This document shows positions 13,648-19,703 of a DNA stretch of 37,795 bases, one piece after another. The translations under genes were made by a program, and so were the position numbers. The notes under the pieces are model-generated. The model was not told the origin of the DNA and ran no database searches. It saw nothing but the letters and a program-made list of their open reading frames with translations. The first letter of the stretch is position 1. Every line of letters starts with the position of its first letter. The DNA is from an uncultured Anaeromyxobacter sp. (GTDB taxonomy: Bacteria > Myxococcota > Myxococcia > Myxococcales > Anaeromyxobacteraceae), in contig CAIOAK010000126.1 in NCBI GenBank assembly GCA_903855945.1, forward strand, positions 1 to 37,795. The letters run 5' to 3'.

Positions 13648-13665
13648 CCCGGTCGCTCCCCTTGC

Positions 13666-13680
13666 GCCCGCGAGGCGGGC
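13666..13680. terminator. Hairpin between the J-domain gene and tsaD
   Basis: GCCCGC-GAG-GCGGGC is a perfect 6-bp stem 18 bases after the preceding stop. No T-run follows, so it may attenuate rather than terminate. A possible -10 (GGATAAA) lies just after it, before tsaD. Confidence 0.4.
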
Positions 13681-13723
13681 CGGTGGATAAAGCGGCCCCC
13701 GCGCGCCGAAGCGGATCCCTCCC

Positions 13724-14738: not shown

Positions 14739-16133
14739 GTGCCCCACCCCTCGCCCCGCGCGCTCCTCGACAAGCACGGTCTCCGGGCCAAGAAGAGCTG
14801 GGGTCAGAACTTCCTCTCCGACGAGTCGATCCTGGACGGGATCGCACGGCTGGCCGTGGAGCGGCCCGGCGAGGTGGTGGTGGAGCTCGGTGCCGGGCTC
14901 GGCCACCTGACCGAACGGCTCGTCGCCCACGGTGCGCGGGTGGTGGCGGTGGAGCGGGACCGGGACATGGCCGCGGTCCTCCGCGTCGAGATGGGGGACG
15001 CGGTCCGGATCGTGGAGGCCGATGCCGCCCGGGCCGCCTTCGCGGAGCTGGCGGCGCAGGCGCCGGGTGGGGGCGTGGCGGGGCGCGTGGCGGTGGCCGG
15101 CAACATCCCCTACCACCTGACGAGCCCCATCCTCTTCTCGCTGCTCGACCAGGCCGGCGACGTGTCACGCGCGGTGCTTCTGGTCCAGCGCGAGGTGGCG
15201 GAGCGGCTCGCCGCCGGGCCGGGCACGAAGGAGTGGGGGCTGCTCTCGGTCCTGCTCCAGCAGCGGGGCACGGTGGAGATCGATCGCATCGTCCCGCGCG
15301 GGGCCTTCCACCCGCCGCCGCGCGTGGACAGCGCGGTGGTGCGCATCGACCTGCACGGGCGGGAACCGCGCGATCGGGATCCGGCGCGCTTTCGACTCCT
15401 GGTGAAGGCGGGGTTCGGGCAGCGGCGCAAGACGCTGCGGAACGCGCTGCAGGCGGCCCGGATCGCGCCGCGCGAGGTCGTCGAGGAGGCGCTGCGCGTG
15501 GCCGGTGTCGACGGGGGGAGGCGAGGGGAGACGCTCACCGTGGAGGAGTGGGAGGCCATCGACCAGGCGCTCGGGCCGGCCGCGGACGCCCCGGATGGGT
15601 TCGGGAGTTTTTCCCCGCCAACCGGGGGATCCGCCCAATATCGCCGCGAGCCGCGATCGACGACACTCCTCCGTGAAGAGAGCATCCAAACCCGGAGTGA
15701 AGGAGCAGGGGCCATGACGACGTTCAACGGAAGCAGCGCGGTGCAGGGCGGCTACTACCTCTCGAAGAGCAACTGGGAGATCTTCCCCGTCGAGAAGGAC
15801 GGTCAGCGCCTCCCCGGCTCCGCTTCCGAGCACTACGTCCGGCTCTCCACCGCGGCGGCGCTGCTCCTCATGCCGGTGCTCGGCGGCCTCATGGTGGTCT
15901 TCCTCCCCTTCATCGGCCTCTTCCTCACGGCCCGGACCGCCGTCCAGCCGATCGTCAACCTCTTCCACCGCTCGGCCCAGGACCTGGCCGCGACCGTGAC
16001 CCCCGGCTGGGCCCCCGGCGCGGCGCACTTCACCGGCAAGCGCTCGGAGGAGAAGGGCGCGGAGCAGGCCCCCTCCCGGGAGACCCGGCTGGAGGAGCTG
16101 GCGCGCGAGATCGACGCGAAGCGCCGCTCGTAG
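14739..16133 (+). CDS. rsmA: 16S rRNA dimethyladenosine transferase RsmA, frame continuing into a membrane protein
   Basis: A single 464-codon frame. Residues 1 to about 285 are a normal-length RsmA/KsgA: KKSWGQNFL at 18-26, the AdoMet motif VVELGAGLGHLT near 47, the catalytic NIPYHLTSP near 122 and FGQRRKTLRNAL near 227. It dimethylates two adjacent adenines near the 3' end of 16S rRNA. No stop follows: residues about 286-325 are composed like intergenic DNA and lead straight into a separate membrane protein that has its own ribosome site at 15714. Either RsmA carries a C-terminal membrane extension, its stop codon was lost recently, or the sequence has an error. The GTG start is one base after the tsaD stop. 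Confidence 0.82.
   Translation: MPHPSPRALLDKHGLRAKKSWGQNFLSDESILDGIARLAVERPGEVVVELGAGLGHLTERLVAHGARVVAVERDRDMAAVLRVEMGDAVRIVEADAARAAFAELAAQAPGGGVAGRVAVAGNIPYHLTSPILFSLLDQAGDVSRAVLLVQREVAERLAAGPGTKEWGLLSVLLQQRGTVEIDRIVPRGAFHPPPRVDSAVVRIDLHGREPRDRDPARFRLLVKAGFGQRRKTLRNALQAARIAPREVVEEALRVAGVDGGRRGETLTVEEWEAIDQALGPAADAPDGFGSFSPPTGGSAQYRREPRSTTLLREESIQTRSEGAGAMTTFNGSSAVQGGYYLSKSNWEIFPVEKDGQRLPGSASEHYVRLSTAAALLLMPVLGGLMVVFLPFIGLFLTARTAVQPIVNLFHRSAQDLAATVTPGWAPGAAHFTGKRSEEKGAEQAPSRETRLEELAREIDAKRRS
15714..16133 (+). CDS. Small membrane protein in the rsmA frame, probably translated on its own
   Basis: This 139-residue segment begins at an ATG preceded by AAGGAG at 8 bases spacing, is in frame with the rsmA reading frame and shares its stop. 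It has a polar N-terminus (SKSNWEIFPVEKDGQ), a long hydrophobic hairpin of about residues 44-76 with a proline-containing turn, then a charged, helical C-terminus ending KRRS. No family recognised. The 120 bases before it read like a promoter and leader region (AT-rich stretches, a CCAATATC segment and a good ribosome site), which favours an independent gene over a true fusion domain. Confidence 0.6.
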   Translation: MTTFNGSSAVQGGYYLSKSNWEIFPVEKDGQRLPGSASEHYVRLSTAAALLLMPVLGGLMVVFLPFIGLFLTARTAVQPIVNLFHRSAQDLAATVTPGWAPGAAHFTGKRSEEKGAEQAPSRETRLEELAREIDAKRRS

Positions 16134-16170
16134 AGGACGCGCGCACCGAAGTGTACTGATCGTGAAAAGC

Positions 16171-19188: not shown

Positions 19189-19679
19189 AGAAGGGCGGCA
19201 AGGGCGGGAAGGCCGACCCCGACGACGTCCAGGTGGTCGCCCGGAACAAGCGGGCGGTCTTCGACTACGACATCGAGGAGCGGGTCGAGGCGGGGCTCGT
19301 GCTCACCGGGAGCGAGGTGAAGTCGCTCCGCGAGAGCAACGTGGCGCTCTCCGACGCCTACGGGGCGCTGCGCGGCGACGACCTGTGGCTCTTCAACTGC
19401 CGCATCGGCGAGTACAAGGCGGCCGCCGCCTTCGGCCACGTGCCGCTGCGGGAGCGGCGGCTCCTCCTGCGCCGGGCCGAGATCGACAAGCTGCGCGGAA
19501 AGCTCGAGCAGCGGGGGTACACGCTGGTCGCCATGTCCCTCTACTTCCGGGCCGGATGGGCCAAGGTGGAGCTGGGGCTCGGGCGCGGGAAGACCCACGA
19601 GGACCGTCGCGATCACATCGCCGAGCGGGAGAGCCGCCGCGAGATCGACCGCGCCATGTCCCGCAAGCGCCGCGGGTAG
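19185..19679 (+). CDS. smpB: SsrA-binding protein SmpB
   Basis: A 164-residue partner of tmRNA in trans-translation, which rescues ribosomes stalled on broken mRNAs. The N-terminus is Lys/Gly-rich, then the OB-fold core begins with VVARNKRAVFDYDIEERVEAGLVLTGSEVKSLRE, as in the family. The basic C-terminal tail (GKTHEDRRDHIAERESRREI) inserts near the decoding centre. The GTG start overlaps the panC stop. No ssrA gene is visible here. Confidence 0.94.
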   Translation: MKKGGKGGKADPDDVQVVARNKRAVFDYDIEERVEAGLVLTGSEVKSLRESNVALSDAYGALRGDDLWLFNCRIGEYKAAAAFGHVPLRERRLLLRRAEIDKLRGKLEQRGYTLVAMSLYFRAGWAKVELGLGRGKTHEDRRDHIAERESRREIDRAMSRKRRG

Positions 19680-19680
19680 C

Positions 19681-19698
19681 GCGCCCCCGCGGGGGCGC
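19681..19698. terminator. Perfect palindrome between convergent smpB and DUF971 genes
   Basis: GCGCCCCCGCGGGGGCGC begins two bases after the smpB stop and ends five bases before the DUF971 stop, so it could end transcription from both sides. There is no T-run. Confidence 0.5.
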
Positions 19699-19703
19699 AC
19701 GGT

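Follow-up and report, generated by a model that had tools for sequence, protein, structure and literature searches.

The rsmA gene of an uncultured Anaeromyxobacter species has no stop codon after its methyltransferase core and remains open into the neighboring gene for a small membrane protein (contig CAIOAK010000126.1; the window, by which we mean the entire stretch of 37,795 nucleotides that was analyzed). We consider it fairly probable that loss of spacer DNA removed the rsmA stop, that the locus yields a C-terminally extended RsmA as well as a free membrane protein, and that no selected role attaches to the fusion.

Layout of the fused frame

The two coding parts are each whole and stand in one frame at their junction. 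The features of the locus are as follows.

14739 to 16133, + strand: fused open reading frame (ORF) of 464 aa with a GTG start and no stop inside
14739 to 15584, + strand: RsmA/KsgA core, residues 1 to 282, with a GTG start (TIGR00755, 233.2 bits against a cutoff of 171; PF00398, E value of 4e-48)
15585 to 15713, + strand: in-frame linker of 43 codons (129 nt) without a stop and without an in-frame ATG, GTG, or TTG; by alignment with congeners, former spacer plus the leader of the membrane protein gene
15590 to 15612, + strand: terminator-like hairpin (stem-loop at 15590 to 15605) and T run, left over from a block that precedes the membrane protein gene in its other copies
15602 to 15609, + strand: CGGGAGTT at the site of the conserved upstream element CCGGANTC, with two mismatches
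15634 to 15643, + strand: CCCAATATCG box, a conserved feature of leaders in this family, promoter-like by position only
15700 to 15705, + strand: AAGGAG ribosome site, eight bases 5' of the ATG at 15714
15714 to 16133, + strand: membrane protein of 139 aa with an ATG of its own (codon 326), spanning codons 326 to 464 of the fused frame; its first Met is invariant in 25 aligned members
15837 to 15947, + strand: hydrophobic stretch by hydropathy, residues 367 to 403 of the fused frame, inside the predicted helix at residues 46 to 94 of the membrane protein

The initial annotation had described an RsmA frame that stays open into a membrane protein with an AAGGAG site of its own, and both the open frame, with its coordinates, and the ribosome site were recovered in our analysis. 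Judged by its sequence, the segment comprising residues 1 to 282 is an ordinary RsmA/KsgA 16S rRNA dimethyltransferase, an enzyme defined by methylation of A1518 and A1519. The TIGR00755 match covers residues 16 to 276 at a score above the equivalog cutoff, and that to Pfam RrnaAD (PF00398) ends at residue 271. The core also contains the patterns QNFL, NIPY, and FHPPPRVDS, which we take to be RsmA motifs. We set the end of the core at residue 282 (base 15584) because three congeners stop two codons beyond it. Where the gene departs from RsmA/KsgA is in lacking a stop after this core and continuing for another 182 codons, which include a hydrophobic segment; 19-residue windows with a mean hydropathy above 1.6 are found only in residues 367 to 403, within the membrane protein.

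The rsmA stop and the spacer in relatives

Sixty relatives were searched, three of them of the same genus (G001, G002, and G003, all metagenome assemblies). In each of these three congeners, a TGA closes rsmA two codons after the core, and the membrane protein gene lies next to it; the contig of G002 ends 31 codons into the latter gene, and in G001 the gene lies in the rsmA frame, separated from it by just two TGA codons. More broadly, the fusion occurs in none of 98 other rsmA loci (80 of them distinct, counted by the last 300 matched bases), which come from a subset of the genomes matched. Their frames extend beyond the core by 35 aa at most (median, 3), with gene ends being less exact where core matches end early (e.g., at residue 176 in L120 and residue 237 in L119). 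These 98 are the loci with an rsmA match among the 102 examined (L008 to L036 and L057 to L129), with no match at 1e-15 in L085, L088, L128, and L129. A conserved two-domain RsmA protein common to relatives was rejected on this count. A stop at this point in relatives, which the initial annotation had named as a refuting result, was found; it counts against an ancient fusion conserved among relatives but not against one of recent origin. As the rsmA stop is present in all outgroups examined, its absence from the window is a derived state.

The distance between alignment anchors on either side of the junction is 273 nt in the window versus 390 nt in G001, 410 nt in G002, and 401 nt in G003, i.e., the stretch is 117 to 137 nt longer in the congeners. 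The relatives therefore carry both genes apart, with intervening DNA that is absent from the window, as in a fusion born of deletion. What is missing comprises the RsmA stop and the DNA after it, as well as DNA between the terminator-like block and the CCCAATATCG box, although two alignments place the gaps of the window, including the second one, differently, such that the number and ends of the deletions vary with the alignment. The block and the CCCAATWTCG motif are 47 nt apart in the window, 70 nt in copies of the gene dispersed elsewhere, 115 to 116 nt at the rsmA locus of the congeners, and 138 nt in G005. Because the leader of the dispersed copies is shorter than that of the congeners' rsmA locus, part of the length difference may be an insertion in the congeners. 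Taken together, these comparisons suggest that the rsmA stop seems to have been lost in the lineage of the window through loss of spacer DNA. Among the three explanations offered in the initial annotation, a recent stop loss is accordingly the best supported, as the three congeners have a stop, as do the other rsmA loci examined, and it is absent here together with part of the spacer. A single-base error, another of the three, was rejected as the cause, since the congeners differ by 117 to 137 nt rather than by one base.

The main rival explanation is an assembly artifact, in which a normal rsmA stop and a longer spacer are present in the true chromosome and a G+C-rich, leader-like stretch was dropped or misjoined; we give this a low but appreciable probability. 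The fusion is known from one genome, a draft of 4,068,513 bases in 213 contigs, and the block at the junction is common to dispersed copies of the membrane protein gene. Three other copies lie at contig ends (the end of C15 and the starts of C24 and C206), so this gene family does break the assembly. Against an artifact, both flanks of the junction have the gene order seen in G001 and G003, the colinear stretch being about 10 kb long. Further, the membrane protein gene is of the type found at the rsmA locus, with 80 to 81% amino acid identity to the congeners' copies at that locus versus 66 to 73% to the dispersed copies compared (except for 85% over 40 residues), and the leader beside its ATG is likewise of the rsmA-locus type.

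RsmA is 83.6 to 86.2% identical between the window and the congeners and 88.3 to 90.5% identical among the congeners, which suggests that the species of the window is sister to these three. Within the same 10 kb or so, the window is without three ORFs that are present in both G001 and G003, and this sister position means that the difference fits loss here or gain there alike. The corresponding gaps in the window are at 13648 to 13720 (an extra 79- or 171-aa ORF in G001 and G003), 16137 to 16166 (a second, diverged copy of the membrane protein), and 19668 to 19702 (an extra 301-aa ORF).

The membrane protein and the linker

Matches to the membrane protein were found in 22 of the 24 genomes searched in the bacterial family to which the genus belongs. 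The version in the window has no Pfam or NCBIfam match up to an E value of 1, and the 25 members of the protein family gave only scattered weak matches, the best being at 0.0082 (Pfam) and 0.0084 (PHROGs). A sequence search for a solved structure of the membrane protein found none. The AlphaFold model, of moderate confidence (pLDDT of 72.8 and pTM of 0.41), has a small N-terminal β module (residues 3 to 44), one long helix (residues 46 to 94), and a C-terminal helix; Foldseek returned 249 matches to it in the PDB at an E value of ≤10 and none at ≤0.001. The dN/dS ratios between the window and the congeners are 0.15 to 0.26 for RsmA (three pairs) and 0.35 to 0.37 for the membrane protein (two pairs), and those among the congeners are 0.16 to 0.17 (three pairs) and 0.28 (one pair), respectively, with the slightly higher values on the side of the window constituting no test of relaxation. 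On these ratios, both halves of the fused frame look constrained.

The gene family is dispersed in the genus: four genomes have 5 to 11 matches each, counting fragments, versus 0 to 4 in 20 genomes of the other genera of the bacterial family. The dispersed copies (L002 to L006 and L039 to L050) and the copy in the window (15714 to 16133) have a leader block, element, and box in common, which gives the impression that promoter and gene were copied together as one unit within the genus. In several dispersed copies (L002, L003, L004, and L005), a G+C-rich inverted repeat resembling GGGGCGGCGAGAGCCGCC was seen by eye 3' of the stop of the membrane protein gene; it is possible that this repeat is a common terminator marking the 3' end of the unit. 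One locus (L130; G000:C88:5525-5567 onward) has a leader joined straight to what appears by eye to be the C-terminal end of the gene, with the middle absent, and would be an internally deleted copy. An ORF near the end of L130 and at L156:11643-11882, i.e., near membrane protein gene copies in two genomes, encodes a product that we take to resemble the gas vesicle protein GvpA.

The G+C content of the linker at codon positions 1, 2, and 3 is 0.67, 0.67, and 0.63, as against 0.83, 0.49, and 0.94 in the RsmA core and 0.66, 0.50, and 0.98 in the membrane protein. By this measure, the linker looks like noncoding DNA that has been read only recently, if it is read at all. One frame stays open in 34% of 20,000 shuffles of the linker bases, and of the 18 further copies of the membrane protein gene, 15 have at least 43 open codons before their ATG (in 2 of these 15, the open run reaches the end of the available sequence). 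An open linker alone is unremarkable; it is the missing RsmA stop that is unusual. When that stop is lost and the two genes share a frame, they become fused with no need for selection.

These observations bear on two further readings of the locus. The first is that of a nascent fusion, whereby one frame would give rise to both a membrane-anchored dimethyltransferase and a free membrane protein, with expression of the membrane protein gene now drawn from rsmA because the conserved upstream element of that gene changed in the same stretch; we hold this to be rather unlikely. The second, which we judge to be still more doubtful, is that a membrane-tethered RsmA has been selected, the fusion having been kept because a dimethyltransferase at the membrane is useful. 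The open in-frame join between two conserved halves and the lack of an in-frame start in the linker itself would agree with such a role, and the tethered fusion envisaged in the initial annotation does follow from the frame. However, its selection is unsupported: no examined relative has the fusion, the linker is of noncoding composition and without coding bias, and most leaders of this family (15 of 18) are open in any case, such that two genes can be joined in frame without selection.

The leader module and the predicted products

Other copies of the membrane protein gene are headed by a module that consists of a block, CGCCCC(A/T)TCCGGG...GTTTTCC, the element CCGGANTC, and, 32 nt farther on, CCCAATWTCG. 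The element is free of mismatches in 14 of the 18 other copies and has a single mismatch in the remaining 4, always at a spacing of 32 from the box; the motif was derived from the same copies, and the count of 18 of 18 is thus a description and not an independent test. In the window, CGGGAGTT differs from CCGGANTC at two positions, with the spacing of 32 unchanged. Searching four genomes with the block pattern yielded 17 matches, each beside a match to the membrane protein gene by coordinates (one of them a fragment), and the reversed pattern, used as a control on the same four genomes, yielded none. As all of the block matches adjoin the membrane protein gene, the module belongs to that gene and not to rsmA. 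No promoter was called by a sigma-70 scan of the window, L057, and L059; given this empty scan, the altered element is not callable as a promoter, and we dropped the label "promoter loss."

One terminator-like site was found in the window, versus 0.3 (standard deviation, 0.7) expected in shuffles, and the block as RNA folds no better than its own shuffles (z of 0.21). The retained hairpin would thus be a weak terminator. At 15588 to 15598, the window reads CCGGATGG, in contrast to the CCATCCGG of other copies or a sequence close to it; CCGGATGG and CCATCCGG are exact reverse complements, and the change is possibly a tiny inversion within the block. Terminator loss by way of this change was considered and dropped, since a terminator-like site is still found in the window. 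It is very improbable that the locus is effectively two genes, with transcription stopping mostly at the hairpin, the membrane protein gene being run from the leftover leader, and the fused frame existing on paper only: the terminator-like site at 15590 to 15605 and the kept CCCAATATCG box and ribosome site speak for it, but the hairpin is weak by the above counts, the upstream element has two mismatches versus none or one in all 18 other copies, and translating ribosomes would cover the hairpin.

The internal ribosome site and start are kept in the family, with AAGGAG eight bases before the ATG. Because of this and the invariance of the first Met in the aligned members, two products from one frame, which the initial annotation had raised as an unusual outcome, are plausible. 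What we infer is a spacer loss that the organism itself carries, the existence of both products, and the lack of a selected role for the fusion. In this preferred reading, a loss of spacer DNA in the lineage would have deleted the rsmA stop and altered the upstream element of the membrane protein gene. Ribosomes that pass the RsmA core would then continue through the former leader to produce a C-terminally extended RsmA, which may sit at the membrane; the enzyme could be so placed if its N terminus faces the cytoplasm. Separate synthesis of the membrane protein probably continues, starting from the kept ribosome site and the ATG at 15714, and the extension of RsmA is probably tolerated rather than selected. 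The hairpin could cut transcripts before the membrane protein gene and leave the fusion a minor product.

The locus is a probable fusion born of deletion, a kind already described by Kaul et al. (bioRxiv 2026; PMC12803068), whose abstract concerns deletions fusing distant gene fragments. The likeness lies in a deletion making one new frame from two genes; unlike the cases in that abstract, neighbors are joined here, only the spacer and stop are missing, and both coding parts are whole. Similarly, Cas11b (PMC11899642) is a nested product made from one frame by internal initiation, and the internal ribosome site of the fused frame could likewise yield a second, shorter product in the same frame. 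A difference is that the internal start here belongs to a gene that relatives carry as a separate one, and the shorter product is a predicted one. Literature searches on KsgA with membranes, fusions, or C-terminal extensions and on Anaeromyxobacter gene fusions listed no paper with a title or displayed abstract reporting a fusion of RsmA to a membrane protein.

If the junction proves to be an assembly error, it would serve as a warning about deducing domain fusions from one draft genome. If it is real, the locus would be a clean case of early gene birth by fusion, in which the parents are whole, the former leader is still recognizable, and three congeners keep the unfused layout. It would allow one to ask whether a translated leader-turned-linker is tolerated and whether the old start is still used, and it would place a methyltransferase of ribosome assembly at the membrane.
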